From Actinomucor elegans (taxonomy: Eukaryota; Mucoromycota; Mucoromycetes; Mucorales; Mucoraceae): DNA of 64,000 nt. Within the stretch, counting starts at the first letter, position 1; each line of letters starts with the position of its first letter. A program made the position numbers and the translations under genes. Location: assembly GCA_026027325.1 (NCBI GenBank), contig JAMSLZ010000016.1:124001-188000 (forward strand). The letters run 5' to 3'. The notes under the pieces are model-generated. The model was not told the origin of the DNA and did no database searches. It saw only the letters and a list, made by a program, of their open reading frames with translations. This document shows positions 31,587 through 63,666 of this stretch, piece after piece.

Positions 31587-31868
31587 GGAGGTCATACAGA
31601 TACTCGCAATTGTTGTACAATTACTCGTACAGGTTCTGGGTTAGTGGATGACCGGGTGCAATAGAATGTGGTTATACAATATGTCTCCGGCATTCCAAAT
31701 ATTTCTAGCCGTTTTAAAAATTGGAAATAGCCATTTAAATGGGTACACATATCCAGAGAACATCACAGCAGCCAAAAATATGCCCATGAGTAAATACCTA
31801 AGGTCATCCACTAACCCAGAACCTGTACGAGTAATTGTACAACAATTGCGAGTATCTGTATGACCTCC
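31587..31868 (+). repeat. left terminal direct repeat of TDR element 1
   Basis: Identical or nearly so to 40054-40335 in the same orientation; a solo copy is at 60139-60420. Its 67-base arms are inverted repeats of one another. Confidence 0.9.
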
Positions 31869-33183
31869 TAGTGGGATATCTCACCACACACTGGTAGACA
31901 TACGTTCCATAGCAAGGTAGTAGAGAGGGGGGGGGCCAAAAGGGATGATCTTGTCCAGAGACCTGAATAGTTTCAGCCCCCCTGGGAATGGAAACTAAGG
32001 AGCCTAAGGTTGTAGTACGAGTAACATGTGTTGACAGTTGGGCGAAGCTTTTAAAAAACAAGTACTCATACGTTGGTGATCTCGCATTCTACATCACGAA
32101 CACCACGTACTTTCTTTACTCGAATTATACAAACATAGAACAAGGTATGCTTCTCTAGTTGCTTCTCTACAACTTGTTTTAAACCTGGACTGCAACGGAC
32201 TGAGGTACCATTGGACAGCCGTAAGTGGAGATAGTTCTTACTTCGGAATGTACCATAACCATATCCGGTTACTTGGTACTTCACACCTACTTTCATGAAA
32301 GAATAATCTGGTTTAGCTCCAGACACTGGGAAGGGATCTAGATGCTGTAATAGTTTATCATCATGTGTCTCCTTGGCCAACCTGATGGTCGCAAGTTTAT
32401 CTCCTCTTTCAGGTCGCAGTCTACTTTTTGGCCATTCGAGGGTGATGTTGCGGAAAGAACAAATCCCTAAATCACCAAAAGAAGCTGCTTTGTTGGTTAA
32501 ATCCTTTCTATAGGGTGTTAAGGAGTTAGATATCCCTGGAACCAACGTGATGGCAGAACATCCTTCTTCACGACGATATATGCTGTCTTCGAGTATCTTA
32601 TATTCATGACTATTCTTCTCAAACTTAACTACCAGATAGTGGATGGGCCTATCGTTAAAGCTAAAGTTTGCAAGATGGAGCATTACGTACTCTTCTGGTA
32701 CTTTTGTATGAATTATGCCTTGCATTCGCTTGGTAAGGGAGTTCCACCAATGGCAGTAAGCGAAAGTCTTTGTTTTGGGAACATATATAGCTGCCATTTG
32801 CGTAAGGTTCTTAGCTAGTTGCTTCCATTGTCTGTCGAAGCTGACCTTGTATGTTGGACAATTATCAAGGAACTCAAGGACCCTAGACATAGTTTTGGTA
32901 TAGAGGGATATCTTTTTTTATATGAATTTAATATATATATTAGTAGAAAACATAAATATAATGTTGTTTTTTCATGCATAATGGAACAGTTGCCTTCTTG
33001 ATAATGTTTATTATACAGAATAATCATTTTAATTTATAAAAAGGTTATAAAGATATAAAAACTATGGATATATTAAAAAGTTTAAATATATATAGAAAAG
33101 ATAAAAATGATGTAATGTCTGTATATATCCGTCTACTATAATAATAATAACAGATTATTACTAATTTTTTTCTCTAATATACA

Positions 33184-33191
33184 AAAATTGA
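33184..33191 (+). promoter_or_regulatory. AAAATTGA motif before TDR-2 transposase
   Basis: AAAATTGAATTTT 18 bases before the ATG at 33210. Confidence 0.4.
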
Positions 33192-33209
33192 ATTTTCTAA
33201 CTAATAAAA

Positions 33210-34382
33210 ATGGAAACTATTAATATTAAATATAATTTACTAAGAGAATATCAAACTTTAACAAATGAATATTGGAAATTTTTAAATTATGGTTTGCCAA
33301 TTATTAATCAAAAAAAAATATCATACAAAAAGGCCAATTCCTATTAATAAAATCAAGGAAATTAAAAAGGTTTTATTTGAGAAGTTGGGAATTATACCAG
33401 TTTATTTCTTTTTAGTTACATTGTTTGGTGATGGAAACTATAGAGGATATAGTTTATATGTGGAGCCAATAATAAATAATTCAGAATTAAATGATTTTAA
33501 CTTTGTATATCTTATTAGAAAAGATAAAAATATAAATTTAGATGATGTTGAATTAAATTATAATGATCAATTTGGTAGTTTTAGATCAAAAATGGAGAAA
33601 GTTTTTTCTGATATTGGATTCATATTTCAGAGATTAAATAATAAAAAATCATTTTTAACATCTAATATAAATATATATAATATACAATTAAAAATTGCAT
33701 CTGTACTTCTAAATATTAAAAGATATGTAAAATGGACATGTTTATGTAACATTATAAATCATGTGATTTATAATTGTGTAACCAAACATTAATTGTTTTA
33801 AATAGAAAATAATAAAAATATAAAACACTTTTTAAAAAGTGTTCTAAATTGTTTTAAGAAGAAAATATAAATTATTAAAAATGTTGACATGAATGGCAAC
33901 TTTTTAATTTTTATTATTTTCAAATGACAAACAATTTGATAATATTTTTTATATTTTCAGAAAGACAAACAATTAAATAATATAGAACATTACAGTTTTC
34001 AATCAAATTGGATGAATGATAACTTTGATTTCGAATATAAAAATAATTTAACTAGTAATATAGATAGCTATAGTGCACCTCCAAAATTAAATGATAGAAT
34101 AAATAATTTAGATAAAATGAAATTGTTACAACATCAATTTTTAGGATTACAATTATCAAATGTTATAAATGATTTAATAATAATATGGATTTAGAGATAG
34201 TTGTAAATGATGATGAAAATATTTATGAGATTGATATTATTTTAGATCATAAAGGATTAGTAGTTGAAGATAGTTTTTATCTCATAAAATGGAAAAATTA
34301 CGATAATAGTGAAAATTCTTGGATACATTATACTAAATTTAATACTTTTGAATGTATTAATGCTTATTGGAACAGTAAATAA
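33210..34382 (+). pseudogene. TDR-2 transposase, internally deleted
   Basis: Starts METINIKYNLLREYQ and is related throughout to the intact protein at 37104-38546. A frameshift near 33313, a large deletion after LFGDGNYRG that removes the first catalytic Asp region, and about 230 extra bases (roughly 33733-33960) break it. The glutamate helix (SFRSKMEKVFSDIG) and the C-terminal chromodomain (YEIDIILDHKG ... YLIKWKNYDN) remain. Confidence 0.85.
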
Positions 34383-34441
34383 GTAATATTTTCGGAATAA
34401 ATATCAATGTTGAAAAAAATATTACAATATTAAATACAACT

Positions 34442-34741
34442 TTATTTAAAATCCCATATTTCTTTAATACTAATATAACCTTTTCTGAGAAACCATGATT
34501 TGAAATATGTTTTTCTAATTTCTTCTGTACTTTTCAATGTTGTTTTTATAACTAAATTTGCATGTACATTTGTATTATTATCACAAAAATCATAAAATGG
34601 ACCACTATATAAAATATCTTCAATATTCTTAATGTTTTTAATCCAAAATAATATTTTCTTGCTTAAAATTTCAAATTTTTTTCCATTAACGTCTTTTTTT
34701 TCAGGATCGAGTGTCAATACAACAGCGTAATAATGATATGT
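34442..34741 (-). CDS. small Rep-like protein of TDR element 2, truncated
   Basis: About 100 aa from the ATG at 34741 (MTYHYYAVVLTLDPEKKDV). Related over its length to the product at 44556-44975, including YSGPFYD, the central NVHANLVIKT and FLRKGYISIKEI. It stops after DFK, where the relative continues for about 40 residues including the third motif, so it is truncated by a stop. Confidence 0.65.
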   Translation of the reverse strand, partial: TYHYYAVVLTLDPEKKDVNGKKFEILSKKILFWIKNIKNIEDILYSGPFYDFCDNNTNVHANLVIKTTLKSTEEIRKTYFKSWFLRKGYISIKEIWDFK

Positions 34742-34911
34742 CATTGTAAAAAGATTAAATGTTTTTTTTTGTAAATATATAATAGAATATGTCAATATTT
34801 ATATTTTTTTTACAAGATATTTTTAGAAATACCAAGAAATTTATTTTTGTAATGTTCATGTGATTATTTTTAATTAATATAACAACTTTGTATTCCCTAT
34901 GCCCTATAGAA

Positions 34912-35143
34912 GAGGGATATCTTTTTTTATATGAATTTAATATATATATTAGTAGAAAACATAAATATAATGTTGTTTTTTCATGCATAATGGAACAGTT
35001 GCCTTCTTGATAATGTTTATTATACAGAATAATCATTTTAATTTATAAAAAAGGTTATAAAGATATAAAAACTATGGATATATTAAAAAGTTTAAATATA
35101 TATAGAAAAGATAAAAATGATGTAATGTCTGTATATATCCGTC
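34912..35143 (+). repeat. right terminal direct repeat of TDR element 2
   Basis: Same orientation and sequence as 32903-33133. Contains the hairpin AAAACA...TGTTTT at 34956-34979. Confidence 0.9.
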
Positions 35144-36459
35144 ATAATAGCTTTCCTTCTTGAGTTGGGTGTTATAAAACGTAATTTCTATTCTGGTCAT
35201 ACCATTACCACGATACTTATTAAGGCGCTCTTGAAAATCTTTGTCAGGGTTAGAAACCAAGTGGTGCAATTGGGAGCCGATTAAAGACCTTAATTCACGG
35301 CTTTCAAGCATTTGGACAAACTTGTTATAGATCTTTATTCGTAAGGGTATCTTAGCACTAGAACTATCATGCTGCCTCCATGATAAGCAGTTATCACCGA
35401 CTGAGTGACGATCGTTGACAATATCTTTATCTTCTACGCCATTAGAAGTAATGTACTCCTTAATAATATCGCGTGTTGATATGTAGGCGCAGTCGATGCT
35501 TATATCCAAGTCATGTAAAAGGATATAATTCTTTGCAACCTTACAGCATATCTTCTTAAGCTTTGGCCACAGTTCCCCATAGCTGATATTCTCAAACGAA
35601 ACTCTCAGCGATATATAGCCTGGCTGGTATTTATCCCAGCTAATACCTGATTCTTTTGCCTCCCTTTGTTGGATGTCGTTGACAAGTTTATCTTCACCAG
35701 CATGCCATTTACCCCTACCAGTGTAAAAGAGCTTGAACTGCTCCACTTGTAGGTGACGGGATAGAAGAAGCCGAAGAATGCTCATGTACATTCCTACAGC
35801 AGAACTTAGCTTCTCTTGTTCCCAATGTACAGCACACCAGAAGACAATGCTGTCGCAGAATACTGCGCTAACATAATCCCAGCCCACACGTTCTCTCGTC
35901 GCGCTACCACAAGTGTAATCGACACCATAGATATTACTAAGGTATTGGTTGTAATCTATAAAGATTTTACTAAGGGGCATTGTGTAGTATATGCTTAGAA
36001 TATGCTACCATGTGCTATTTAAAAGGCTTAAATATTCCATATATTTTAACAAGTTTTAAAAAACATCCCCTTGTGGAACCTACTTCTTCCGCCTTCTTCT
36101 AACGTCTTTCTCATACTCGATAATAATATCAGAGTCGTCGAAGTTGTTAGGAGAAAGCCAACTATTGCTACTCTCATCATAGCCTACCCACCTAACCAAA
36201 TACTCTCTACGATGCTTTGGTCCACGATGCCCAACAATGGCCTCAACCTCGTAGTGTCCTTGTGGTAAGTCCTCGTCGATGGGTTCGTCATCAGAGCCAT
36301 TATCTTCGTTCACCCCCAAAGAGAGAAACTGCTGCTGTATTTCTTTTACCATCTCAGCATCTTGGGACTTTTCCGCAATTGTAAGGGTACTTACTACGTC
36401 ATAGACATTCTTACTGCTGCCATTTGGAAAGTCGAAGTTAGGCTGCATCCAAAAAGTAT

Positions 36460-36691
36460 GACGGACATCTTGTTTCATATAAATTTGGTACGTATATTAG
36501 GAGAAAGCATAAATATAATATTGCTTTTTCATGCAAAATGGAACAGTTGCCTTCTTGATAATGTTTATTATACTTAATAATAATTTTAATTCATGAAAAA
36601 AAGTTATAAATTATAAAATATATGGATATATTAAAAAAAAATAGGACATATACAATAGATTTAAAAGATATATTAATTGTAGATATCCGTC
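36460..36691 (+). repeat. left terminal direct repeat of TDR element 3
   Basis: 232 bp, apparently identical to 38568-38799. Contains the hairpin AAAGCA...TGCTTT at 36504-36527. Confidence 0.92.
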
Positions 36692-37069
36692 TACTATAAC
36701 CATAGAGAAATGTTTCTGTTGCTATAAAATTCTGAATTATAAAATCAGCTTAACACTACAATTCTTTTCAAATTATCAATTTGTTTGTCATTCCATGAAA
36801 ATTAAAAATGTTCACAATTTGTGAACTTTTTATATTTTCTATTTCTTTAAAACAATTAGGATTTATTATATTTTGTGTAACACAAAATATTTATAAATCT
36901 GTCTATTAATAAAAAGTTCAAAAAAAATAATTGATTTTACAATTTTGCTGACTAAGCAAAATATAAAATTAATAAATTTTAGAATTACTTCAAACTTTTC
37001 AAAATAAAAAATGTTTTCTAAAACATAATAATGTATATATATTATTATTAATTTTATTTTAAGTTATAA
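36692..37069. other. 5' untranslated interior of TDR element 3
   Basis: About 380 very AT-rich bases between the repeat and the promoter motif; no gene seen. Confidence 0.5.
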
Positions 37070-37077
37070 AAAATTGA
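37070..37077 (+). promoter_or_regulatory. AAAATTGA motif before TDR-3 transposase
   Basis: AAAATTGAATTT 26 bases before the ATG at 37104. Confidence 0.45.
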
Positions 37078-37103
37078 ATTTATCTCAATATAAAAAAGAA
37101 CAA

Positions 37104-38546
37104 ATGGATAATATTAATAATGTTAAGGATACTTTATTAATGGAGTATCAGATTCTAACAAATGATTATTGGAAATTTTTAAATTATGGTTGGCCAGAGA
37201 TTGAACAAAAAAAATATCACACTAAAAAGATTATATCTATTAAAAAGATCAAAGAAATTAAAAAGATTTTATTAGAAAAGTTAGGAATAATACCTGTTTA
37301 TTTCTTCCTAGTTATATTATTTGGAGATAGAGATTATAGAGGACCATATAATAATATAGAAAAAGGCTTATTGATATTATATTTTATAGTAGAGAATATA
37401 TCAATTGAAGATATGGATGATTATATATCAAAAAGTACTTTTCATCAAATATACAGACAATTTTATTCATCAGATAGAATGTTAAAATTAAATAAGATTT
37501 TAAGTTTTTCTTTACAAAACATGTTTTCAAATATAAAAATTAGACTTTTAAATGGAATGATAGAGAATCCAGATTTGTTTAATCAAGTAACAATACATTT
37601 AGACGGCCATGATAAAAGAGGTATGGTATATGGTGCAGAAGATAAATCCATATATTATAGTTACAAACTTAAAAAAAATGGGTTTAGAACACAAGTTGCA
37701 ATAGATACAAATGGTATGGTATTATTTGTATCAGACAGTCAACCATGTAGTACTAATAATGATGGATCTATGCTTATAAATATGAATATTGAAAATAAAC
37801 TAAATTTGATGGATTGTATTGCATTAGATGGAGGATATAGCCTATACGTAGATAATATAATAAATAGTTCTGATCTAAATGACTATAACTTCGTATATCC
37901 TATCAGAAAAGATAAAAATATAAACTTAAATGAAATTGAAATAAATTATAACGATCAATTTGGAAGTTTTCGGTCTAAAATGGAAAAAACTTTCTCAGAT
38001 TTGGGATGTATCTTTAAAAGATTAAATAACAAAAAACCTTTTTTAACTACTAATATAAATATATATAATATTCAACTAAAAATTGCATGTGTCCTTTTTA
38101 ATTTAAAAAAATATATTAAACTAAACAATATAGAACATAGTGATTTTCATTCATATTGGATTAATGATAGCTTTGATTTTAAATACAAAAATGATATTTT
38201 GAATAATAATGAAAATTATAAATCACTTCCAAAGTTAAATGAAAGAATAAACAATTTAGATAAAATGAAATTATTACAGCAACAATTTTTAGGATTAGAA
38301 TTATCAAATATTGCTCATTTTAAAAATAATAATATTTATAATAATGAGAAAATGGACTTGGAAATAGATATAGATAATAATGAAAGTTATGAAATTGAAA
38401 CTATTTTGGATCATAAAGGGTTAATAGTCGAAGATAGTTATTACCTTGTGAAATGGCAAAACTACAGTGATGAGGATAATTCATGGATACATTACAGTAA
38501 ATTTAATAGTTTTGATTGTATTAATATATATTGGAATAGTAAGTAA
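37104..38546 (+). CDS. DDE_Tnp_4-type transposase with C-terminal chromodomain
   Basis: 480 aa from ATG 37104; the frame is open slightly further upstream, but without an ATG. Residues 1-165: helical DNA-binding region (YWKFLNYGWPEIEQKKYHTK, STFHQIYRQFY). Catalytic Asp in IHLDGHDKRG (about 167), YSYKLKKNGFRTQVAIDT, second Asp in IALDGGYSLY (about 242), Glu in SFRSKMEKTFSDLG (about 294). Chromodomain at about 428-480 with the aromatic cage positions in YLVKWQNYSDEDNSW. The catalytic core follows IS5/PIF-Harbinger transposases; a C-terminal chromodomain on such an enzyme is unusual and could steer insertion to heterochromatin, as proposed for chromoviruses. Confidence 0.88.
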   Translation: MDNINNVKDTLLMEYQILTNDYWKFLNYGWPEIEQKKYHTKKIISIKKIKEIKKILLEKLGIIPVYFFLVILFGDRDYRGPYNNIEKGLLILYFIVENISIEDMDDYISKSTFHQIYRQFYSSDRMLKLNKILSFSLQNMFSNIKIRLLNGMIENPDLFNQVTIHLDGHDKRGMVYGAEDKSIYYSYKLKKNGFRTQVAIDTNGMVLFVSDSQPCSTNNDGSMLINMNIENKLNLMDCIALDGGYSLYVDNIINSSDLNDYNFVYPIRKDKNINLNEIEINYNDQFGSFRSKMEKTFSDLGCIFKRLNNKKPFLTTNINIYNIQLKIACVLFNLKKYIKLNNIEHSDFHSYWINDSFDFKYKNDILNNNENYKSLPKLNERINNLDKMKLLQQQFLGLELSNIAHFKNNNIYNNEKMDLEIDIDNNESYEIETILDHKGLIVEDSYYLVKWQNYSDEDNSWIHYSKFNSFDCINIYWNSK

Positions 38547-38567
38547 CTAATTTAAAATGTTATAGAA

Positions 38568-38799
38568 GACGGACATCTTGTTTCATATAAATTTGGTACG
38601 TATATTAGGAGAAAGCATAAATATAATATTGCTTTTTCATGCAAAATGGAACAGTTGCCTTCTTGATAATGTTTATTATACTTAATAATAATTTTAATTC
38701 ATGAAAAAAAGTTATAAATTATAAAATATATGGATATATTAAAAAAAAATAGGACATATACAATAGATTTAAAAGATATATTAATTGTAGATATCCGTC
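38568..38799 (+). repeat. right terminal direct repeat of TDR element 3
   Basis: Same orientation as 36460-36691; hairpin at 38612-38635. Confidence 0.92.
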
Positions 38800-40053
38800 T
38801 ATGTTGTTCAGAGCTAGAAACACACCCAATGTTAACAAACTTCTTGATGTTTGCAAGAAGACATGCAAGCTTGAACTGTACCGTGAATGTCTCCATCTCG
38901 GTAACTCGAATAACGCCTTTACCGTTGAATCGTTGAAATAAGGTTCCAATCACTCCAAACGTTGCTTCTATCGAGGAACGAAAGCTTCCAAGAATGGAGT
39001 TGTAATTAACTTCTTCTTGTTTCAGACCCACTCCTCGAGACTTACGGATAGGGAATACAAAATTATGGCGATCCAGGTGACGATTATTTGCTACAATACG
39101 ATCTATAAAAGTAGTGTATCCACCATCAACGACAACACAATCGTACTTACTAATCTTCTTCTTCAACCGCATATCAGCAAGCATAGACCCATCGTTGTTA
39201 TCTGAACATGGTGCCGCATCGGAGACAAACAACACCATCCCATTAACATCTGTACATACTTGTGTTCGGAAGCCAGACTTCTTAAGCTTATACGAATAGA
39301 ACATGGCATGATCTGCAGCGTTGATATATGTTGCTCTAGAATCATGTCCATCTATCATCAAGGTAACATGCTTAAAATCTTCAGGGTTTCGGTGAAGAGC
39401 ACACATAATTCGCAGCTTTGTTGAGGAGAACATCTTTCGTAGGCAATAGTCCAAACAGGTATTCAGCTCCTCTCCGTATTTTGTATAAAAGGCATTGTAA
39501 ATAGCATGGTAGCTACTAGAAGGGATGAAACGTGCCATATGCGCAATAGAACAACCGGTAAGAAGCTGGTAGATTATCAACAATCCTTTGTCCACGTTGG
39601 AATATGGACCAGGATATTCTTGGTTTGCAAACAGCTCTACGAGAAAGAAAAAAACAGGTATGTAGCCAAGATGCTCCAACACATAAGTTTTTACATGCTG
39701 GATATCTTTTACAGGCTTAACCTCAGACCGGTGATACTTAGTCTTTTCCAACACTGGCCAATCTTTAGAAAGAAACTGCCAGTAAGTCGCCATAAGCAAC
39801 GTAAACGCATCTACTATTTCTTTCGGAAACATGTTTATTTAAGAATGCTGTAGTATAATAGGAGTTGTATGCTACCAAATGCTGTTGTTCACTCCCAGTC
39901 CTACAGTGTAGCCTTAGGCTCCTTAGTTTCCATTCCCAGGGGGGCTGAAACTATTCAGGTCTCTGGACAAGATCATCCCTTTTGGCCCCCCCCCCTCTCT
40001 ACTACCTTGCTATGGAACGTATGTCTACCAGTGTGTGGTGAGATATCCCACTA

Positions 40054-40335
40054 GGAGGTCATACAGATACTCGCAATTGTTGTACAATTACTCGTACAGG
40101 TTCTGGGTTAGTGGATGACCGGGTGCAATAGAATGTGGTTATACAATATGTCTCCGGCATTCCAAATATTTCTAGCCGTTTTAAAAATTGGAAATAGCCA
40201 TTTAAATGGGTACACATATCCAGAGAACATCACAGCAGCCAAAAATATGCCCATGAGTAAATACCTAAGGTCATCCACTAACCCAGAACCTGTACGAGTA
40301 ATTGTACAACAATTGCGAGTATCTGTATGACCTCC
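40054..40335 (+). repeat. right terminal direct repeat of TDR element 1
   Basis: 282 bp, same orientation as 31587-31868, ending GACCTCC directly before the TAT duplication. Confidence 0.9.
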
Positions 40336-42848: not shown

Positions 42849-43069
42849 GATAAACATTTACAACTACTTAATATTTTTAACTTTCCTAAAAAATCAAGGC
42901 ATAAATATAATGTTGCCTTTTTATCCATAAATAAAATGTTGGTTACTTGTTCTATTTTAGAATAAAATTTATTTATATTATTATTTGTATTCAAAAAAAT
43001 CTATTATTTCCTAATTTTTTTATATATTGTACTATTTTGAACATATTTCTGTAATACTAAATGTTCTTC
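42849..43069 (+). repeat. left terminal direct repeat of TDR element 4
   Basis: Nearly identical to 45131-45350. Contains the hairpin AAGGCA...TGCCTT at 42896-42919. Confidence 0.9.
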
Positions 43070-43080
43070 TTATTAATTGA

Positions 43081-44517
43081 TTAATTATTTTCTATTGATT
43101 TCCAATAATTCAAAATAGTATCATGTGATGTAAAATCTTTTTCTTTTACCCATGAATTATGTTCTTTACCATACTTTTTCCATTTTACAAAATATTCATA
43201 TAAGTTCTTTACTTTTTTGTGTTTAATTATATATTGTATTTCATATATATTTTGATCATTATTACTAGTGATATCTTCCTCCATTTGATCCATAATATCT
43301 ATATTCACTTCATTTATATTTAAATTATTTAAAAATTGATTTTGTAATGATTTTATATCAACGATATTTTCTATTTTATATTGTGTTTTTAATGTTACTT
43401 CTTTATTCATTTCAATATTATTTTTATAATAATAATCAAAATTATCATTTAGCCATTTGTTGTAATGGGCATTTTCTTCAATTCCAAATAACTCTGTAAA
43501 ATATTTTATGTTCAGTAATACTATTGCTAATTTTAGCTGTATATTATATGTCTTATTATCTGTTATTCTAATCTTATTTTGTCCACTAAATCTTTTAAAA
43601 ATACTACCTAATTCTGCAAAATATTTTTCTATTTTTGACCTTAATCCACCTAATTCTTCATTGAATTTTTTTTCATCTATGGTTAATTCAACTCCTTTAT
43701 CTTTTTTTATAGGATAGCAAAAATTTTTCAAGGATATATTAAATCCAATATTACTAAATTTTTCTATAAATTCTTTTACTGTGTTTTCATATAATCCATC
43801 AAAACATATACAATCTATTTCATTATAAAACTTATTGATATTTATGTCTAAAAGCATTTTATCATCAGTATTATTTCTACAAGGTAAGGAATCAGATATA
43901 TAAACACATATTCTATTAATATCTATAATAAATTGTGTATTTAATCCATTTCTTTTTAATTTATACGAGAATAACTCTTTTTTATCTAGATTAATATCTT
44001 GATATGTTATACGATTATGGTGACCATCAATTAGTAATGTTACATTATCTAACATCATTGGATTAAATTTCTTAGCACAAAGTAATCTCAATGTATGTGT
44101 AGAAAAACATTTTTCTAATTTATTATTTATCCATTTTTCCAATAAATCATAATTATTTATATATAATGATTGATATAATTTATAAAAACTAGTAGATGGA
44201 ATATACATTTCCATTTCATTTATAGATTTTCCATTTAATAAATGTTCTAATAATATCAATACTTTATCTGCTGTTATATATGGACCTGGTAGTTTTATAT
44301 TGTTACATAAATCTGTCAAAAATACAAATGGAGCAATACTTCCTAATTTAATATATATATTTTTTTTAATTCTATCAATATTTGGTATACTCGTTATTTT
44401 AGATCTATGATATTTCAATTCAACTTTATATATATATTCATTTTTCATAAATTTCCAATACCTATTGTAAATATTTCTGTATTCATTTTCAATTAATAAG
44501 TCTATATGAGTGTTCAT
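43081..44517 (-). CDS. DDE_Tnp_4-type transposase with C-terminal chromodomain (TDR-4)
   Basis: 478 aa from ATG 44517 (MNTHIDLLIENEYRN). Catalytic LLIDGHHNRIT, SYKLKRNGLNTQFIID, ICFDGLYENT and GLRSKIEKYFAELG; chromodomain at the C-terminus (YEIQYIIKHKK ... YFVKWKKYGKEHNSWV). Related to the product at 37104 and to the broken gene at 61851-63327, closer to the latter. The stop lies 11 bases from the terminal repeat. No internal stops. Confidence 0.88.
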   Translation of the reverse strand: MNTHIDLLIENEYRNIYNRYWKFMKNEYIYKVELKYHRSKITSIPNIDRIKKNIYIKLGSIAPFVFLTDLCNNIKLPGPYITADKVLILLEHLLNGKSINEMEMYIPSTSFYKLYQSLYINNYDLLEKWINNKLEKCFSTHTLRLLCAKKFNPMMLDNVTLLIDGHHNRITYQDINLDKKELFSYKLKRNGLNTQFIIDINRICVYISDSLPCRNNTDDKMLLDININKFYNEIDCICFDGLYENTVKEFIEKFSNIGFNISLKNFCYPIKKDKGVELTIDEKKFNEELGGLRSKIEKYFAELGSIFKRFSGQNKIRITDNKTYNIQLKLAIVLLNIKYFTELFGIEENAHYNKWLNDNFDYYYKNNIEMNKEVTLKTQYKIENIVDIKSLQNQFLNNLNINEVNIDIMDQMEEDITSNNDQNIYEIQYIIKHKKVKNLYEYFVKWKKYGKEHNSWVKEKDFTSHDTILNYWKSIENN

Positions 44518-44555
44518 AAACAAATAAAATGATGTATTTTTATATAAAGAGAAAT

Positions 44556-44563
44556 TCAATTTT
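44556..44563 (-). promoter_or_regulatory. AAAATTGA motif before TDR-4 transposase
   Basis: Minus-strand AAAATTGAATTT 38 bases before ATG 44517. It overlaps the end of the upstream small gene. Confidence 0.4.
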
Positions 44564-44975
44564 TAATATTTTCTATATTTAATAAACTTTTATTTATATA
44601 TGAAAATTCAATTTTAATATTTTCTATATTTTCCAAGAACTTATGATTTCTTTTTGCATAATCTAACCATGATTTAAAATTATAAATTTCTTTAATACTA
44701 ACATATCCTTTTCTTAAACACCAGGATTTGAAATATTCATTTCTAACTTTTTCGTTATCATCTAAAATTGTTTTTATCACTAAATTGGCATGGATATTTG
44801 TATTGTTTTCACCAACATCATAGAAAGGACCACTATATAAAATTTTATCAATATTTTTTATATTTCCAACCCATTGCAGTATTTTCTTGTTTAATATTTC
44901 GGATGATTTATTCTTGACATCTTTTTTTTCAGGATTTAGAGTTAAAACCACAGCATAATAATAGATTTTTTCCAT
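44556..44975 (-). CDS. small Rep/HUH-like protein of TDR element 4
   Basis: 139 aa from ATG 44975 (MEKIYYYAVVLTLNPEKKDV); a further in-frame ATG exists at 45014. Three stretches sit where rolling-circle Rep endonucleases have motifs I-III: VVLTLNP (about 9), NIHANLVIKT (about 60) and WLDYAKRNHK (about 105). The His is single rather than HxH or HUH and the Tyr-Lys spacing is shorter than in CRESS Rep, so catalytic activity is uncertain. A relative, cut short, is in TDR element 2. It precedes the transposase by 38 bases, on the same strand. Confidence 0.65.
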   Translation of the reverse strand: MEKIYYYAVVLTLNPEKKDVKNKSSEILNKKILQWVGNIKNIDKILYSGPFYDVGENNTNIHANLVIKTILDDNEKVRNEYFKSWCLRKGYVSIKEIYNFKSWLDYAKRNHKFLENIENIKIEFSYINKSLLNIENIKN

Positions 44976-45130
44976 TAAATATAATATTGATGTTATTTTA
45001 AAAATAATTCTCAAATATTATAGATACTTTTATATTTTCCAAAATATCATGCCAAGAATTAGATGCCAAGGAAGTTGTTTTTAGATTTCTCAATGTGATT
45101 AAACGCAATGGAAGTCTAAAAATAGGACAA

Positions 45131-45350
45131 GATAAACATTTACAACTACTTAATATTTTTAACTTTCCTAAAAAATCAAGGCATAAATATAATGTTGCCT
45201 TTTTATCCATAAATAAAATGTTGGTTACTTGTTCTATTTTAGAATAAAATTTATTTATATTATTATTTGTATTCAAAAAAATCTATTATTTCCTAATTTT
45301 TTATATATTGTACTATTTTGAACATATTTCTGTAATACTAAATGTTCTTC
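45131..45350 (+). repeat. right terminal direct repeat of TDR element 4
   Basis: Same orientation as 42849-43069; hairpin at 45178-45201. Confidence 0.9.
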
Positions 45351-45782: not shown

Positions 45783-46288
45783 TGTTGTAAACGCTCATAA
45801 TTATATTAATAAGAGAATACTGTACAGATAGAAAATCGTATAGATATCCTTATATATAGCTGCAGAAGTGTATAAAGCATTATTACCAAGAACCAGAATG
45901 TAAATGACTGTATTTGATTATGTTAAAATATCTTTATTTATATATCACTCTGAGCAAGTAGACGCTAATTGATAAATACTATCTCTCACACCAAATATTA
46001 CATTCAATACTATTACCTTTGGATATATTGATCCCGACACTCCTCGCCGCTAATCTTGGTCCGCTCATTTGGTTATTATCCCTGGTCTTCTTTATACGCA
46101 GTCCAACCTTGTTCCTGGCAAATCGTAATATGAATTTAGAATCAAGTACCGACCGAGAAAAAGTATATAAGAGATGCGTTTTATCACCTTTTGACCAGTT
46201 AATCAATTCTTGATCTCTAATAAAAAACTATCCACAGTTTTAAAAGTATTTCTATCTTCCAAAATCTTTATCTACCACCTTTACAACA
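45783..46288 (+). repeat. 5' LTR of gypsy 3
   Basis: 506 bp with TATATAAG about 120 bases before its end as a possible TATA box. The base after the LTR starts TTTTTTAC, not the TGG expected for a tRNA primer site; gypsy 2 has the same word in the same place. Confidence 0.92.
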
Positions 46289-46333
46289 TTTTTTACTTTT
46301 AATTACTGTCCTATTTTCCTTACTTTTATCGAT

Positions 46334-49300: not shown

Positions 49301-51259
49301 TTTCAAAAGAATGAGGCCGGCCAAGATCTTTACATAGGATTTGTATCGAGCTCCTTGTCACCTTCACAACGCCGTTGGAGCACTACTAAAAGAGAATTGT
49401 ATGCAGTCGTGTTAGCATTACTGAAGTTTCGCAAGTATATATGGGGCAAAAAGTTCACTGTATTTACAGATCACAAGGCACTAGTATACTTACATACGCA
49501 AAAGATCGCAAATCCCATGTTAATTGGATGGATCGAGACTCTTCTGGATTTTGATTTTGATGTAGTGCACATCCCCGGTATATTGAACAAATTGCCTGAT
49601 ATTCTGAGCCGTTTGTATTCACCTTTAGAAGATGAAAACAAACTGGTGGAGGATAGTGTTACGAGCAAAATCATCAGACGAAGCCCTAAAAAGAAAGCCA
49701 TCATTAGAAAAAAGCGATTTAGCCGAGATAAAACGATTAACGTACTCGCGACTAAACTAGTTGAAAGAAAAGATGAGCTGACTGACTATATGACTCCTCC
49801 TGAAGAAGAGAGAGATGCTCTGTTGAAAGAAGCGCATGCATTTGGACACTTTGGATCGCAAGCAATTGTGCGAGATTTACATTCACAAGGTCTCCATTGG
49901 GCGAATATCTACGCAGAAGCAAAAGACATTGTTAGTTCGTGTGTTGAATGTCAAAAGCACAACATCAGTAAGAGAGGTTATCACCCATTATCTAATGTTG
50001 TAGCCAACCGACCATTTGATCATATTGCTATCGACTTGGCTGGACCTTTTGACGTAACTGAAGAAGGATATGTTTACATGTTGGTTATAACAGATATTTG
50101 TTCGAAATTCGTTATTCTCAGACCTCTGAAGAACAAACAATCCGATACTGTTGCAAAAGAGTTGGTCAAAGTCTATGGTGATTTTGGTGTTCCACGTATT
50201 TGCCAGTCTGATAATGGTCTAGAGTTCAAGAATGCTGTGATGAACAGTATTTCGAAGAACCTAGGAATTGATAGAAGATACACTACGCCATATCATCCTC
50301 GAGCAAATGGAGCAGCGGAAAATGCAGTTCGTACCGCAACTAACACGTTAAGAAAAATGATGAAGTCAGACAGTCATAGTTGGGCGTATTATCTTCCTAT
50401 CATACAGCTCTGCATGAACCGACACATTAAAGCAAAAACTATGAGTTCTCCCTTCTCCTTGATGTTTGCACGTAGAGTCAACTTACCTGATGACTACGGT
50501 AACGAGAAGAAGTTCAAACTACCCATCGAGTCTATGACCATGCGAGAGTTGGAAGAACGCGTAGATTACATGGATAAGATCGTATTCCCAGCCATCCTCG
50601 AAAGAACTCAGAAGATAAATGAGGAATACAACAAAAAGTTCAATCAAAAGAGTGTTCTTGTCGACATTCCAGTTGGAACGCATGTCATGATCAGATTACA
50701 GAATCGATCTAGTAAGTTAGCTCCGATTTATGAGGGACCTTACACTGTTGTTCGAAGAAATACTGGTGGATCGTATGAACTAAAGGATGAACAGAATGAA
50801 TTATTATCCCGAAACTATGTACCGTCAGAATTGAAAGTCGTTACCCTGGATGAGTCTAGTATCGAAGAAGAATACTACGAAGTCGAAGGTATCCGTGATC
50901 ATCGAGGTGAAGAAGGTCATCGAGAATACTTGATTAAGTGGAAAGGTTATTCTGAGAAAGAAAATACTTGGCAAAAAGCAAGTGATTTCACCGATCCAAC
51001 TATCATTCAACGGTACTGGAATAAGCAAAGAGAATTACGACGTTTAGAGCAAACTAGAGTCGAACAGTCAATTCAAAACTCTGAACCTAACAGACGCAAA
51101 AAAGTTGGAACTTCCAAGATTCCTAAATGCAATGGGAATGAGATGTCAAATGTAGCGATCGAGATGTCGAAAAACAAAAGAGCAAATATTGCAGCCACTA
51201 CGAGTAGAGAAGAGAGAATACTGAATAGACGTTCAAACAAGAAAAGAAAGATAGAATAA
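46334..51259 (+). CDS. gag-pol: chromovirus Gag-Pol polyprotein, intact
   Basis: 1641 aa in one frame, so gag and pol are fused without frameshift. Gag with retrotransposon capsid region (about 100-280); zinc knuckle variant CWTCGVSPWRPGHRC (about 397); protease DTGSS (about 495); RT with FVDDC (about 829); RNase H ATDASLYG ... TDHKAL; integrase zinc region HAFGHFG ... CVECQKH (about 1168-1210) and catalytic IDLAGP, SDNGLEF, NGAAENAV; chromodomain about 1515-1567 (YLIKWKGYSEKENTW); basic tail. Every catalytic residue is in place. The protein processing would rely on its own protease. Confidence 0.95.
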   Translation: MASNNVSGSSSANCGVNPDTPMFDESTLSSNLDEFIKSPGASSLLSESAEHAVADMTDPQLIDTNIAGLRADITRYLQAFSRARVVRDDVAADEALLALERSKRMLREIQECSSLIGEVDRVKPPTGLTLNRRDLPKFQLLTSAVKPFPGYEAFESVEHFLREFEDVVESSSMSIDEVWKNFLPLCLPHGDKAWVKDELSRGCTLWADARREFKKQHGSSLVLRRYTDLVFTMVMENNESVGDYAKRFQTAMFDAGLPRECPRVADRFLASLTKPVQTLIRVAMNSVKAGSSGENAEYTVDQIAQIGRDILGDDHTSYNEAVSLLPGAPVVERRKEKAPYHHHHKNAARRVQKASKVAKPFSCIHHGNNATHDTKDCFLAKRRAERPPSVKKAKGKECWTCGVSPWRPGHRCGAAESSSSSTVLAVMPAASSSEKSIEQQVQEDLEMADSEIENQSYQCKYLNENKKSDKLKANDAFNLCTPLIVESERLLGRVDTGSSCSFVSLSSLKNKLHINKVHKLPGSYNFLSHQNTAKRIGITDPLEIKYANGIKFKHSFEVMNFNDGFEFDILLGTDILPKMNIGLTGVAFRIKDDHAHSDAALSDEAIFENLNIERERKHEPDNSPAGTPEQRAEFMSIIKESLEINQSIPITSSCPLPESIVRLPTKEGATAYRRQYPIPYALRPVLDKQIKEWLETGTIIRSRVNTSFNSPLLLVPKRNKDGEIVSHRACLDVRSLNQILPPTFNFPVPLVKDIFDNLAGKKVFTTLDLSNAYHRFKVAPEDVHKLSFTYNGNGFSFQKACFGVKMLTSQFQKVMATLFEGIDCVQNFVDDCIVASESIEQHAKDVKFVIDRLNSANLILKESKCSWFQHSVRMLGFVVDASGVRVDQSKLTNVSKWPLPNKNKKHIQQFMGLVNYLREFVPMISRVAEPLTSLVNAENVEELWTDRHTKSFETIKEILQSKMMLHYPDLSKQFYVATDASLYGVAAVLFQKNEAGQDLYIGFVSSSLSPSQRRWSTTKRELYAVVLALLKFRKYIWGKKFTVFTDHKALVYLHTQKIANPMLIGWIETLLDFDFDVVHIPGILNKLPDILSRLYSPLEDENKLVEDSVTSKIIRRSPKKKAIIRKKRFSRDKTINVLATKLVERKDELTDYMTPPEEERDALLKEAHAFGHFGSQAIVRDLHSQGLHWANIYAEAKDIVSSCVECQKHNISKRGYHPLSNVVANRPFDHIAIDLAGPFDVTEEGYVYMLVITDICSKFVILRPLKNKQSDTVAKELVKVYGDFGVPRICQSDNGLEFKNAVMNSISKNLGIDRRYTTPYHPRANGAAENAVRTATNTLRKMMKSDSHSWAYYLPIIQLCMNRHIKAKTMSSPFSLMFARRVNLPDDYGNEKKFKLPIESMTMRELEERVDYMDKIVFPAILERTQKINEEYNKKFNQKSVLVDIPVGTHVMIRLQNRSSKLAPIYEGPYTVVRRNTGGSYELKDEQNELLSRNYVPSELKVVTLDESSIEEEYYEVEGIRDHRGEEGHREYLIKWKGYSEKENTWQKASDFTDPTIIQRYWNKQRELRRLEQTRVEQSIQNSEPNRRKKVGTSKIPKCNGNEMSNVAIEMSKNKRANIAATTSREERILNRRSNKKRKIE

Positions 51260-51442
51260 GTAGGCAAGTTATGAAACAAGAACCAAGAAAAGCCACGATG
51301 CAAGAAAAGACCCTGAATTGGTGCGTAAAAGGAGGTATACCTGAGCGTGTTAATCAAAACTCAGCCGCATGAATGTACTATTTGGTGGAACTGACGCACT
51401 TGCCGAATCAATACAAGTTTGTTTGATTCTGGTGGAGGATAA

Positions 51443-51948
51443 TGTTGTAAACGCTCATAATTATATTAATAAGAGAATACTGTACAGATAGAAAATCGTA
51501 TAGATATCCTTATATATAGCTGCAGAAGTGTATAAAGCATTATTACCAAGAACCAGAATGTAAATGACTGTATTTGATTATGTTAAAATATCTTTATTTA
51601 TATATCACTCTGAGCAAGTAGACGCTAATTGATAAATACTATCTCTCACACCAAATATTACATTCAATACTATTACCTTTGGATATATTGATCCCGACAC
51701 TCCTCGCCGCTAATCTTGGTCCGCTCATTTGGTTATTATCCCTGGTCTTCTTTATACGCAGTCCAACCTTGTTCCTGGCAAATCGTAATATGAATTTAGA
51801 ATCAAGTACCGACCGAGAAAAAGTATATAAGAGATGCGTTTTATCACCTTTTGACCAGTTAATCAATTCTTGATCTCTAATAAAAAACTATCCACAGTTT
51901 TAAAAGTATTTCTATCTTCCAAAATCTTTATCTACCACCTTTACAACA
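51443..51948 (+). repeat. 3' LTR of gypsy 3
   Basis: Apparently identical to 45783-46288; preceded by the purine-rich GGTGGAGGATAA. Confidence 0.92.
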
Positions 51949-54468: not shown

Positions 54469-54765
54469 ATGTTATAAAAAATATATAAAAACGTTATAAG
54501 AATACAATTAAAATCCTTCTAATGGTTTATTGTGTAGAAAGGTAAAAGATGATTCTTAGTTAACTGAACTTCTTTAGATATAAAATCAGGCTCTATATAT
54601 ATTATTGTCGGGTATATAATTAGTAGTATATACAAAGACCTCGGATGCAGAATTATATTGTTTGTACAAGACGGTTGCTGAGATATATTTGTTAATGGAG
54701 TACATTATGATGATGATTATGTTTTAAGACGGAACTTATTATGTGCGAGATCTTAGTTCAGCACA
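54469..54765 (-). repeat. 5' LTR of gypsy 2 (uninterrupted)
   Basis: 297 bp, followed by the CAAGG duplication. Serves as the empty-site reference for TDR element 1. Confidence 0.92.
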
Positions 54766-54770
54766 CAAGG

Positions 54771-56187: not shown

Positions 56188-56269
56188 TGTTAAATAATAG
56201 AGACTATTATATGAATAATAACTTATTCATTATTAATCTTATCTTTAGATGAATATATTAATTTATATA

Positions 56270-57929: not shown

Positions 57930-57931
57930 TA

Positions 57932-58360: not shown

Positions 58361-59229
58361 TTCCATTGCTAAATTAAAACAGAAAAAAAGGAATATTATA
58401 AAATGTTTGCATTGTTTCTCTTTATTTTGTAACAATGAGTCTCGGTTATGATAAATGATTTTATTTAAAATATAAAATAGCAACGACTTTTATATTAAGA
58501 ACAGTTATACTGTTTCTTTTTCAATGCCCCAATTTTTCAAACAAGCTTACAATCTTTCATTAACTTCCAATAAATTATAATGAGTATATTTTATATTGTT
58601 CCATATATTTAACAATTTCTTTTTTCTATCTAACAAGTTGTATTTTGAGTAATTTATTAAAAATAAAATCGTTTATATATTCACATTTCTTGAAGCGTTA
58701 AGGGTAAAACAAAATTTCTCCTCTAAAATAACGTGACTTGCTTCGAAAAAAACCTTTTCAGGTGTTGAATCCGAAGTAGCTAAAGACCAAAGATTCACGT
58801 AATAATAATAATAAGACTTGTATATGTAATCAGATTACTGATTGGTAATAAGATAGTTATTTCTTCTTTATTTCGATCATAAAATGAAGGTGTATTTATA
58901 TTAGTTAAAGGTCTTATGTTTAACCGATTGACAGGTACTGCTGAGAATGAATGAATGAAACAATAATTCATGTTTAGCCGATTACTTGCAAGTTACGGTA
59001 GAATTAGTTTATACAAGTAAACGTACTGTTCTTGTATTGGTTCTTGTATTATTACTGATGAGTAATGTTAATGACAAGTGATGATGAATCGATCTAGAAG
59101 CTTAATTGATTATGCGTGAATTGCTTGATTGGTGAAACCTGTTTGTCGGGTCAATCAGTTACGCAGTTAGATAGCTTTAATTGAGACATGTCGTATGTAT
59201 AGCCTGTGAATATAAGCGTGTATACGACA
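58361..59229. other. non-coding gap
   Basis: About 870 bases, AT-rich, no gene or known repeat recognised. Confidence 0.5.
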
Positions 59230-59690
59230 CTGTTCACAATTTCAACGCAATCTCGACATCTGCACACATTTGCAATATAATCTCGACATTTATTCTCAAT
59301 TTTAACGCAATCTTGACATTTGTACACATTTGCAATATAATCTTGACATTTGCACACATTTGCAATATAATCTCGACATTTATTTTCAATTTTAACGCAA
59401 TCTTGACAATTGCACACATTTGCAATATAATCTTGACATTTATTCACAATTTTAACGCAATCTTGACATTTGCACACATTTGCAATATAATCTCGACATT
59501 TATTCACAATTTTAACGCAATCTTGACATTTGCACACATTTGCAATATAATCTCGACATTTATTCAAAATTTTAACGCAATCTTGACATTTATTCTCAAT
59601 TTCAACATAATCTTGACATTTATTACCAAATGTAACGCAATCTCGACATTTTTATGCAATTGAACCGCAATCTCGACATTTGGTTTTCAT
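59230..59690. repeat. minisatellite, 60-bp unit of 20-bp subunits
   Basis: Subunits vary around AATCTTGACATTTGCACACA and AATCTCGACATTTATTCACA; lines 60 bases apart are nearly identical. Both strands stay open in one frame because the unit is a multiple of three with no stop. Confidence 0.9.
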
Positions 59691-59750
59691 TTCAATAACT
59701 TTTCTTAATTGCGCTTTCTCAATCGTTATAGTTTGCTTTGGGATTTAACA

Positions 59751-60138: not shown

Positions 60139-60420
60139 GGAGGTCATACAGATACTCGCAATTGTTGTACAATTACTCGTACAGGTTCTGGGTTAGTGGA
60201 TGACCGGGTGTAATAGAATGTGGTTATACAATATGCCTCCGGCATTCGAAATATTTCTAGCCGTTTTAAAAATTGGAAATAGCCATTTAAATGGGTACAC
60301 ATATCCAGAGAACATCACAGCAGCCAAAAATATGCCCATGAGTAAATACCTGAGGTCATCCACTAACCCAGAACCTGTACGAGTAATTGTACAACAATTG
60401 CGAGTATCTGTATGACCTCC
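60139..60420 (+). mobile_element. solo terminal repeat of the TDR-1 type
   Basis: 282 bp, a few substitutions from 31587-31868 and 40054-40335, with complete palindromic arms (GGAGGTCATACAGATACTCG and inverse). The flanks (GTA, CGA) do not form a 3-bp duplication, so it may derive from recombination or a deletion. Confidence 0.85.
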
Positions 60421-60769
60421 CGAGTATAATAAAGGCCATAAAATGACCAGGCTGATAAACGAATAGATGTATTAAGCTAGTAAAAGAATTGCTGTCATTT
60501 ATTCAAATTTAAGCTTAAATTTAACTAGGTGTTATAAATGATGAGTTAGTCAAAAACTCTGTTCATAAAGTTAACAACGATTGTAGTAATCCATTCCAGT
60601 ATGACTTACATTCTATGAGAGATAGAAATAGTTTATGAAGATTAGTTGTATTGCGTATTGATTTCCATATATACCTTTTGACCGATGAAGAGTTGCCGAA
60701 GCACAAGCTGAGTACAATTATTGCCAAATAGCAGCCTGATTGGTAGCGGAAACTGAATAAAATCATGTT
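60421..60769. other. non-coding gap
   Basis: No gene or repeat that I can name. Confidence 0.4.
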
Positions 60770-61090
60770 TGAAATTCACTCGATTGAAACTAGTGATTCG
60801 TTGTAGTTCCAATACTAGGCACATAATCTTTACTGGTGAGCTGAGTATTTTAGTTACAGCTCCGAAAGTTAGCATATCGAATCCACACAATTTAAAAATG
60901 CTGTGGTCTAAATTTCAAGCTCCTATGTACTACAGATCATCCCCTGTGCGTATTTTACACCTTGTATCCTTATTGGAGAGCTGAGTTTTCCAGTTACAGC
61001 TCCGAAAATTTGTAGATCGGATTTAAAAAATTAAGAAATCCTGTGTTCCAAATTTTAAACTCCTATGTACTACCAATCATTCCCTGGACC
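60770..61090 (-). repeat. 140-bp repeat units, inverted relative to 55084-55490
   Basis: At least two units spaced about 138 bases, ending TCCCTGGAC at about 61089, with GAGCTGAG, AGCTCCGAAA and CTCCTATGTACTAC. Opposite orientation to the array at 55 kb. Confidence 0.75.
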
Positions 61091-61586
61091 TATTTTGTAC
61101 CGTGTCCGATCTCTCTGGGGGAATAAGCAAGGTTTCAAGTTACTATCTCTCTTGGCCTGGTCTCAAACCATTGTATTTTTCTGACACATTTTCCTTTTTA
61201 TATATATTTTCTTATTATATTTGTTATTCCCTTTACTTTTAGTATTATATTCCCTTCATTCAGTTTTTCTTTTGTACATTTCACTCATTTCACTCATTTC
61301 ATTCACATTGTGAATCTTTATTTTCCCTTTTCTTTTATTCGATGTCCTTTTTCCATTTTTCCCGTCTTTTCCATTTTTCCCGTCTTTTCCTTTTTCCCCT
61401 TTTGTATATATTATCGTAGATCCATTCAATGTCTCGGTCCCTCGAATTTGACATTTGATCTAGTGTTACACCTAGATTCTTATTGTTCTCGAGTGATCGC
61501 AGATCAAATGCATTGACTCTGGATAAAGTTACTCGGTGCTCTGCTGCAGAAGATGAATGTTTTACGCTGGTTATGTTTCTGATGCT
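61091..61586. other. non-coding, with CT-rich microsatellite
   Basis: 61290-61310 repeats CATTTCACT; 61350-61400 repeats TTTTTCCCGTCTTTTCCA. No gene seen. Just before 61587 the sequence is interrupted by TDR element 5 (TCA duplication) and resumes at 63667. Confidence 0.6.
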
Positions 61587-61589
61587 TCA

Positions 61590-63666
61590 GAGAATCAATT
61601 CATCCATTTTAAAAATTATTAAAAAAAAAATATAAAAAAAATTAAAAATTGTTTGTTACTTTTATTGAAAACTTTAGGGTTCATTCTCGAGATAAATTAT
61701 GAAGTTAATAAAAAATTGGAAAAATAATTAATTTTGTAAATTTATTTTAACTTTCTAATGTTTTTTTAAATTTTAAATATTAAAACTAATGCTTTTATAA
61801 TTTTATTTTCTACATATTTAGTAATTTTAATAGTCTTTAAATTGTTTCTCTTATTCAATATTAATAGTATCCCAATAATTATCTATTATATCTTTGTTTA
61901 CAAATTCACATTCTTTAACCCAACTATTATAATTTTTATTATAATTTCTCCATTTCACATAATATTCTCTATCTTCTATATTTCCTCTATGTTTTATAAT
62001 ATATTGTAATTCATAAGTTTTATCATTTTTTTCTTTATTTTCATCTTTTTTTGGAATATATCAAGTATATTATTTTTAACATTTTCATCTAATACCATAT
62101 CATTATTTATTGATAATATTAATCCGTTTAATATATTATTTTGATGATTTTTTATATTATTTATATTATCTAATTTATATTGAGTTTTATATGAAAGATT
62201 ATTTTCATTTATATCTTGAATACTAGGGTCTAAAAACATAAAATTATAATTTTCTTCTACCCATTTTTATGATATTCTGATTCATTTATATTGGCAATAT
62301 TTGTAAATTCTTTAATATTTAATAAAACAATTGCTAATTTTAATTGTATATTATATAAATTATTATCTGTTATTCTAATTTTATGTTGCGCATCAAACCT
62401 TTTAAATTTTTTCCCAAAATTGGCAAAATATGTTTCTATAGTAGATCTGAATGAAGATAATTGTTTATTATAATTTTTTTCATCTGATTTTAAATCAATT
62501 TCTTTTTCCTTTTTTATAGGAAAACAAAAATTATTAATACTTATAGGTAAACCTATATTTTGATATTTATCAATTACTTCATTTACAGTATTTTCGTATA
62601 AACCATCAAAGCAAATACAATCTGTATCTTTTAAAAATTTATTTAATTTAATATCTAAAAACATATTATCATCATTATTCATCTTACAAGGTAAAGAATT
62701 AGATATATAAACACATATATTATTACAATCTATGATAAATTGAGTATTTAAACCATTAGTTTTTAATTTGTATGAATAAAGTTCCTTTTTATCTAGATTA
62801 ATATCTTGATATGCTATTTTACTATGATGCCCATCCATTAATAATGTCACGTGTTCAAAATTATTTGGATTATTTTTTTTAGAACTTAAAAGTCTTAAAA
62901 TATTATTTGAAAAACAATTATCTAGCATATAATCTAACCATTTATTTAAAATATCTCTATTATTGATAAATACAGATTGATAAATTTTATAAAAATTACT
63001 TTCTGGAATATATATTGACATTTGATTCATTGAAAAACCATTAAGTAAAAATTCTATTAATAAAATACATTTTTCTATTTCATTATAAGCACCTGATATT
63101 TTTATATGACTACAAAAACTGGTTAAAAATATATATGGTGCTATATATCCCAATTTATTATAAACATTAATTTTAATTTTATCTATATTTGGTATAGTTT
63201 GTATTTCAGTCCTATAATATTTAGTTTTACAATTTTTTATGTAATTTTTATTTAAAAGATATTTCCAATAATTATTATATAACTTATTAATTTCGCTATT
63301 AATATATATATCTATATCTTCTTCCATTTTGTTTATTTCTTAGATAAATATTCATTTTTATATAATTATATATGCATATATTCGATGTAGTTTTTTAATT
63401 GCTAAGAGAATCAATTCATCCATTTTAAAAATTATTAAAAAAAAAATATAAAGAAAATTAAAAATTGTTTGTTACTTTTATTGAAAACTTTAGGGTTCAT
63501 TCTCGAGATAAATTATGAAGTTAATAAAAAATTGGAAAAATAATTAATTTTGTAAATTTATTTTAACTTTCTAATGTTTTTTTAAATTTTAAATATTAAA
63601 ACTAATGCTTTTATAATTTTATTTTCTACATATTTAGTAATTTTAATAGTCTTTAAATTGTTTCTC
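61590..63666 (-). mobile_element. TDR transposon 5
   Basis: Flanked by TCA (61587-61589, 63667-63669). Direct repeats 61590-61850 and 63406-63666, 261 bp each, differing by a single base near 61637/63453 as far as I can see. Ends GAGAATCAATTC and, inverted, GAGAAACAATTT. One minus-strand gene, frameshifted. Confidence 0.92.
61851..63327 (-). pseudogene. TDR-5 chromodomain transposase, frameshifted
   Basis: Starts MEEDIDIYINSEINKLYNNY at 63327. Catalytic LLMDGHHSKIA, SYKLKTNGLNTQFIID, ICFDGLYENT and SFRSTIETYFANFG are in frame to about 62257. Frameshifts near 62265 and 62050 then separate the chromodomain (YELQYIIKHRG ... YYVKWRNYNKNYNSW), which ends with TAA abutting the terminal repeat. Closest to the TDR-4 protein. 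Confidence 0.88.

Follow-up and report, generated by a model that had tools for sequence, protein, structure and literature searches.

Composite DNA transposons with paired, self-contained terminal units and an IS5/PIF-type chromodomain transposase in the fungus Actinomucor elegans

The five transposable elements considered here (E1 to E5) lie in a 64,000-nucleotide stretch of the Actinomucor elegans genome (assembly GCA_026027325.1, contig JAMSLZ010000016.1, positions 124,001 to 188,000), which we call the window and whose own numbering is used for all coordinates unless a locus or contig is named. Together, our data suggest, with a probability that we put at roughly 0.8, that they are DNA transposons of a composite, paired-end kind, in which an IS5/PIF-type transposase moves the terminal units, alone or as a pair, and both units are re-derived from one template.

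A scripted re-read confirmed the original prediction that near-identical terminal repeats of 221-282 bp stand in direct orientation at both ends of all five elements, with a 3-bp target site duplication (TSD) outside them. E1 (31587..40335, minus strand; TSD TAT) is a long form of about 4.16 kb that spans 8.7 kb because E2 and E3 are nested inside it; its left (31587..31868) and right (40054..40335) units are identical over all 282 bp. E2 (32903..35143, plus strand; TSD ATA) interrupts the second E1 gene; its units, of 231 bp (32903..33133, plus) and 232 bp (34912..35143, plus), differ by one insertion or deletion (indel). In E3 (36460..38799, plus strand; TSD TAT), which sits in the E1 transposase gene, the two 232-bp units (36460..36691 and 38568..38799, both plus) are 100% identical. 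E4 (42849..45350, minus strand; TSD ACT), inserted in a Ty3/gypsy-like pol open reading frame (ORF), ends in units of 221 and 220 bp (42849..43069 and 45131..45350) with one indel between them, and E5 (61590..63666, minus strand; TSD TCA) in two 261-bp units (61590..61850 and 63406..63666) with one mismatch.

A search of the genome from which the window comes (36.5 Mb, 27 contigs) showed the plan repeated in further copies and families. Our count takes in full pairs of E3, E1, F11, F4, F9, F10 and F12 together with the window copies of E2, E4 and E5, and a 3-bp TSD was common to both outer flanks in 43 of these 48 pairs, as against about 2% of flank pairs that would share three bases at random. 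By family, the TSD was present in 10/12 E3, 9/10 E1 and 17/19 F11 pairs, in all four pairs of F4, F9, F10 and F12 and in all three of window E2, E4 and E5. The count omits loci without a fetched partner, 5/30 for E3 and 4/30 for E1, as well as three E1 loci in one array. The duplicated 3-mers are A+T-rich and have no fixed motif, TTA or TAA making up 10 of 72 TSDs.

Empty sites, of which the prediction had noted one, exist within this genome. An uninterrupted 160-bp match to the joined flanks was found, among the fetched loci and the window, for four of the five window insertions: one for E1, in the window itself (54517..54676, plus strand, 100% identity), seven for E2 and sixteen for E3 (in fetched loci, some of them mutually overlapping), and two for E5, at 98.75% and 97.5%. 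The site into which E2 inserted is an uninterrupted 556-aa ORF in another copy. E4 had no such match among the fetched loci, and its flanks, once joined, give one open frame.

Each terminal unit is in turn bounded by short inverted ends of its own (GA or GG ... TC or CC), as had been claimed. All ten unit families compared show 8-12 matches over the first 12 bases, a level that shuffles of the same unit reach in 0-3% of cases (p <0.0001 to 0.031), and in the E1 unit the inverted ends are perfect over 67 bp. The earlier label of the ends as resembling long terminal repeats (LTRs) misleads, since the repeats are self-contained units and E1 cores may be inverted: among the nine E1 pairs with a TSD, the cores are direct in six and inverted in three. 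What is needed seems to be the unit itself, whichever way it lies. Inverted ends were also sought at the borders of the middle region, where 67 of 120 positions matched as compared to 55 with permuted partners (p 0.027); this signal is weak, E1 alone gives 12 of the matches, and we made no use of it.

Terminal units also occur singly. Solo units were chosen from best-candidate lists for having no visible partner, and a TSD was present at 29 of the 34 independent ones examined (E3 3/3, E1 4/7, F11 11/12, E4 5/6, E2 6/6; a seventh E2 solo with the same flanks as another was not counted). Four further fetched places are parts of longer copies, namely L141, L152 (within the E2 dimer described next), and L156 and L157 (a pair already counted). 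The solos L148 and L149, on contigs C18 and C5, are one E2 unit between identical flanks, which probably reflects duplication of a segment. In the E2 tandem dimer (C22:744089, 746100, 748108), two elements share the middle unit and there is a single outer TSD, ATA/ATA, while an E1 array (G000:C21:2358212-2366250; L048-L050) has three units, two oppositely oriented middle regions and outer flanks that do not match, TAA/ACT.

Units of E2 and E3 are 35 substitutions apart, compared with no substitution within either window pair (one indel in E2). In F11, four single-nucleotide polymorphism (SNP) sites define two haplotypes among the full copies; left and right unit agree at these sites in 19/19 pairs (one unit being gapped at one site), and the class of the middle region, of which there are two by bit score, goes with the unit haplotype in 14/14 copies when read across by hand. 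Indels in the homopolymer runs of F11 units may be assembly noise and were disregarded. As far as sequence comparison goes, then, the two repeats of an element change together. The solo units of F11 are different, in that 11 of the 12 fetched carry SNP combinations absent from all 38 fetched paired units; six, at different sites, carry CGGG, and five of these six are mutually identical. Such haplotypes could mean either that units multiply alone or that whole subfamilies have been reduced to solos, of which the first is the simpler; on this showing, the units appear to be mobile on their own. For E2, E3 and E4, left-right differences common to many copies were looked for in the best 40 of 108, 111 and 101 candidates, respectively; this comparison is uninformative, since the majority of the units scored are either the same or distinguished by changes in homopolymers. 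Three of the E2 places, at 97-98% identity, are solos.

An IS5/PIF-like transposase with a C-terminal chromodomain had been assigned to all five elements. The assignment holds in full for E3 (480 aa, 37104..38546, plus) and E4 (478 aa, 43081..44517, minus), which alone in the window have both parts in one unbroken frame. The E1 gene is split by E3 into a DDE_Tnp_4 part (38699..39832, minus), whose ORF end runs into E3, and a chromodomain part (36080..36478, minus), whose ORF start lies within E3. The E2 transposase is broken, with a fragment of 13.6 bits, below cut-off, and a chromodomain-like stretch near 34284 (by motif); that of E5 (356 aa, 62257..63327, minus) has its chromodomain in another frame, near 61958 (again by motif). 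In Pfam terms, DDE_Tnp_4 is above cut-off in E1, E3, E4 and E5, and Chromo in E1, E3 and E4. Across families, DDE_Tnp_4 exceeds the cut-off in 10 of 11 transposases (F10 has 24.3 against 24.8; the broken E2 fragment is not counted), and the catalytic D, D and E are present in each of the 21 that were aligned, 51-57 residues separating the second D from the E. NCBIfam IS5 models matched three of five scanned transposases (E 7.7e-5, 2.2e-4 and 0.076), all far below model cut-off, which agrees weakly with a place on the IS5/PIF side. The chromodomain is closest in sequence to HP1/CBX chromodomains.

A tree of the transposases, a midpoint drawing with incomplete rows for E1 and E5 and ten added homologues, unites F9, F11, E4, E5, F4, F10 and F12 (100/98), with F3, F13 and a stray contig beside them (88/82), and places E1 and E3 in the other large clade together with the ten homologues. 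The paired design may have been gained at least twice, or it may have been lost in F3 and F13; the tree is consistent with both.

In the genome, at least 90 transposase matches were obtained with the E3 query and at least 115 with the E5 query, which merge to 128 loci. These are clustered, with a median nearest-neighbour distance of 12.8 kb compared to 85 kb when simulated (0/1000 simulations as low). Twelve families were opened, and further ones are present in the match lists. Nine of the twelve have direct pairs, namely E2, E3, E4, E5, F4 (L070), F9 (L071), F10 (L072), F11 (L073) and F12 (L074), one copy each having been read for E5, F4, F9, F10 and F12; E1 has direct or inverted pairs, and F3 and F13 have neither. 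F13 (L075, L160) is an ordinary 2.15-kb element with short imperfect inverted ends, TSDs ATA and CAA, and two reciprocal empty sites. F3 (L133, L069) consists of two modules, each with inverted arms; of three copies, two have a TSD (ATT and ATA) and the other has flanks that do not match. The F3 modules stand back to back (L133 with L069; L131, L132, L135), with near-identical inverted arms of 202 and 219 bp; by eye, one module holds an ORF resembling the small accessory ORF described below and the other the transposase, and in a copy on C22 the arm order is reversed.

Units of E3 were 100% identical at 40/40 scored places (the best 40 of 111 candidates), and so were those of E1 at 40/40, each of which was re-matched on the opposite strand because of the inverted ends. 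Best candidates were scored first, so older E3 and E1 copies may be missing from these figures; to judge by the sequences scored, the families are young or contain young copies. The paired-unit architecture was examined in this one genome. Among the 120 transposase homologues listed, those with a name belong to Mucor, Thamnidium, Cunninghamella, Apophysomyces, Rhizomucor, Mortierella and related genera, which we take to be Mucoromycota. A search of a viral contig collection gave no relatives, and one of a genome contig collection gave two short contigs (L136, L137), filed under metagenome-assembled genomes of uncultured Bacilli, that encode relatives of the fungal transposase (36 and 47% identity). 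No repeat pairs were found in these two, which are probably eukaryotic contamination.

Two accessory proteins accompany the transposase. The first, ORF2 (about 120-140 aa), has 62 matches in the genome, mostly of E4 and E2 types; the E4 version has 139 aa (44556..44975, minus), and E2 retains a remnant (34442..34744, minus). A protein search returned 12 homologues, 0/12 with a Pfam domain, and the structure model predicts a ferredoxin-like fold. The second, a protein of long-form E1, is intact with 556 aa in another copy (L116:175-1845); in the window, E2 divides it into a C-terminal part (32066..32890, minus) and an N-terminal part (35072..35980, minus) whose ORF end runs into E2. It has no convincing Pfam family. 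Because it has 107 homologues, the named ones in Mucoromycota, and because two Rhizomucor gene models join a relative of it to the transposase or to the transposase's chromodomain, this lineage of transposons probably has it as a regular partner. Scans of the ORFs of both proteins against Pfam, PHROGs and NCBIfam gave no significant nuclease match; a relative of ORF2 hits a homing endonuclease of PHROGs, at a non-significant E of 0.17.

These observations are compatible with the following model for the movement of paired-end elements. The IS5/PIF-type DDE transposase most likely acts on the unit ends. If the two outermost ends were used, the whole element would move and a 3-bp TSD would arise; if the two ends of one unit were used, that unit would move alone, giving a solo unit with a 3-bp TSD. 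Insertion is probably directed by the chromodomain to silenced chromatin rich in repeats. Within an element, the two units would be re-derived from one template again and again instead of evolving separately. As to how, we lean, with slightly less than even confidence, to recombination between the units that releases a one-unit circle, followed by replicative insertion that copies the unit, as for IS26 translocatable units. Almost as probable a route is that the units undergo gene conversion or unequal crossing-over with each other.

Several points weigh against this model. No circle, excised product or strand-transfer product has been seen, and the support comes from sequence comparison. A matching TSD is absent in 5/48 pairs and 5/34 solo units and from the E1 array; in the window, no TSD is visible at the solo E1 unit (60139..60420). 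The 19 concordant F11 pairs represent only two haplotypes, so that their concordance reflects few independent events, and the F11 sample is the best 40 of 108 candidates, ranked by likeness to one haplotype, with 12 of 15 unpaired places fetched. The inverted cores in three of nine TSD-bearing E1 pairs require a flip in the simple circle route, and the long inverted arms of F3, 98-100% identical, are explained by gene conversion but not by a one-unit circle. Clustering, finally, may reflect selection against insertions in genes rather than targeting.

The most serious alternative, which we rate a little short of an even chance, is linear cut-and-paste from the outer ends. The units would be carried passively and kept alike by gene conversion or unequal crossing-over, and the solos would be recombination scars. 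This would account for the near-identical arms of F3, for the E2 dimer, whose one outer TSD fits unequal crossing-over, and for the unit ends and TSDs still found on the solos, which recombination would preserve. Against it, 11 of the 12 F11 solos match none of the 38 paired units fetched, and five of the six that share one haplotype are identical, which is not expected of scars left by the copies now present; they may nevertheless be scars of lost subfamilies.

It is improbable that full elements are rebuilt by circles that join solo units through homologous recombination, which is one model offered for the KolobokP transposons (PMC9587614). Solo units are common and one dimer exists, as such rebuilding would have it, but mismatched pairs should result, and none of the 19 F11 pairs is SNP-discordant, even though solos and pairs have different haplotypes. 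The class of the middle region moreover goes with the unit haplotype in all 14 copies. That no F11 pair is mixed tells against circles often being integrated into solo units by homologous recombination.

Even less likely is that the elements belong to KolobokP itself and moved into fungi. The architecture and the RR...YY ends are the same, but the C/DxxH motif between the second D and the E is found in 0/21 aligned transposases, and no nuclease reached a significant E-value in the accessory ORFs scanned. That the direct repeats are miniature inverted-repeat transposable elements (MITEs) which landed independently on both sides of a transposase gene, a possibility that the original prediction had named as one that would refute it, is scarcely credible: the units are MITE-like and are found alone, but in the families examined the inner edges carry no TSD, the inner junctions are constant between copies, TSDs stand only outside, and identical pairs recur in many copies and families. 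MITEs flanking a transposase gene may nevertheless have been the first origin of the design. Terminal direct repeats, chromodomain and solo repeats do recall chromoviruses, but a retroelement or a relative of LTR retrotransposons is just as hard to credit, given that, apart from a single 115-aa ORF running antisense to the E1 transposase, the ATG-started ORFs of at least 100 aa in the window elements are ORF2 and pieces of transposase, chromodomain or the 556-aa protein, that Pfam found no reverse transcriptase, protease or gag in the ORFs scanned, and that the relative F13 has ordinary short inverted ends.

Two other features of the window may be mentioned. Positions 45783-51742 hold a Ty3/gypsy-like retrotransposon with a 1641-aa polyprotein, its C-terminus chromodomain-like by eye, between 300-bp stretches that are 100% identical, and positions 59143-59742 hold a tandem array with 30-bp spacing, whose copies are 60-84% like the reference.

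Among known systems, bacterial composite transposons and IS26 translocatable units likewise have two mobile units, direct or inverted, that flank a shared middle; in the fungal elements, by contrast, the units are non-coding and the transposase lies in the middle. With IS26, a translocatable unit in the form of a one-unit circle would regenerate the pair. Chromoviruses of the Ty3/gypsy group have a chromodomain at the C-terminus of the integrating enzyme, terminal direct repeats and solo repeats, all of which the fungal elements share, whereas they differ in that no reverse transcription genes were found in them, in the catalytic family, in the self-contained repeat units and in the 3-bp TSD. 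The PIF/Harbinger-ISL2EU-Spy (PHIS) group and bacterial IS5 have the same catalytic domain, DDE_Tnp_4, with the same D...D...E spacing, and F13, from the same genome, has the ordinary form with short inverted ends. The PHIS group prefers TWA targets; the paired fungal elements have no fixed TWA target and, unlike PHIS and IS5, have paired terminal units and a C-terminal chromodomain. Their usual 3-bp TSD is that of canonical Harbinger elements (PMC12730594). Among the matches listed from the open-licence PMC literature, seen in part, we found no paired-end design in fungi or in the IS5/PIF group.

The claim that no described superfamily has this design did not survive, since KolobokP (Kojima and Bao 2022, PMC9587614) has the same architecture: a middle region with the transposase between long terminal direct repeats that have short inverted ends of their own, solo repeats, multimers with outer TSDs, and RR...YY termini. 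All of these are common to the fungal elements. KolobokP belongs to the Kolobok superfamily, with a C/DxxH motif, a His-Me nuclease and TSDs of 3-5 bp, and has been reported from seven animal phyla (PMC9587614); the fungal elements, in contrast, have an IS5/PIF-type transposase with a chromodomain, apparently other accessory proteins and a TSD of 3 bp. As C/DxxH is absent from all 21 aligned transposases, their lineage is apparently independent of Kolobok. Direct repeats at the termini are normally taken as the sign of a retroelement, and here they belong to young DNA transposons whose units change in concert, in a superfamily other than that of the only described case found (KolobokP). What was a single oddity becomes an apparent convergence, which suggests that the design evolved more than once. 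Tentatively, and with less assurance than we have in either route of unit copying, we consider the paired-end design a recurring way of life of eukaryotic DNA transposons, reached independently in Kolobok of animals and in an IS5/PIF-type chromodomain lineage of Mucoromycota by way of a one-unit circle whose insertion would copy the unit and so regenerate terminal repeats without reverse transcription. The question raised by KolobokP of how a composite structure is kept up becomes testable in a fungus with apparently recently active copies, and this fungus offers a good opportunity to find out what keeps both ends of such elements the same. To judge from sequence, the elements described here look like a second, independent lineage with KolobokP-like architecture, in Mucoromycota, with a chromodomain in addition and with copies that are clustered in the genome.

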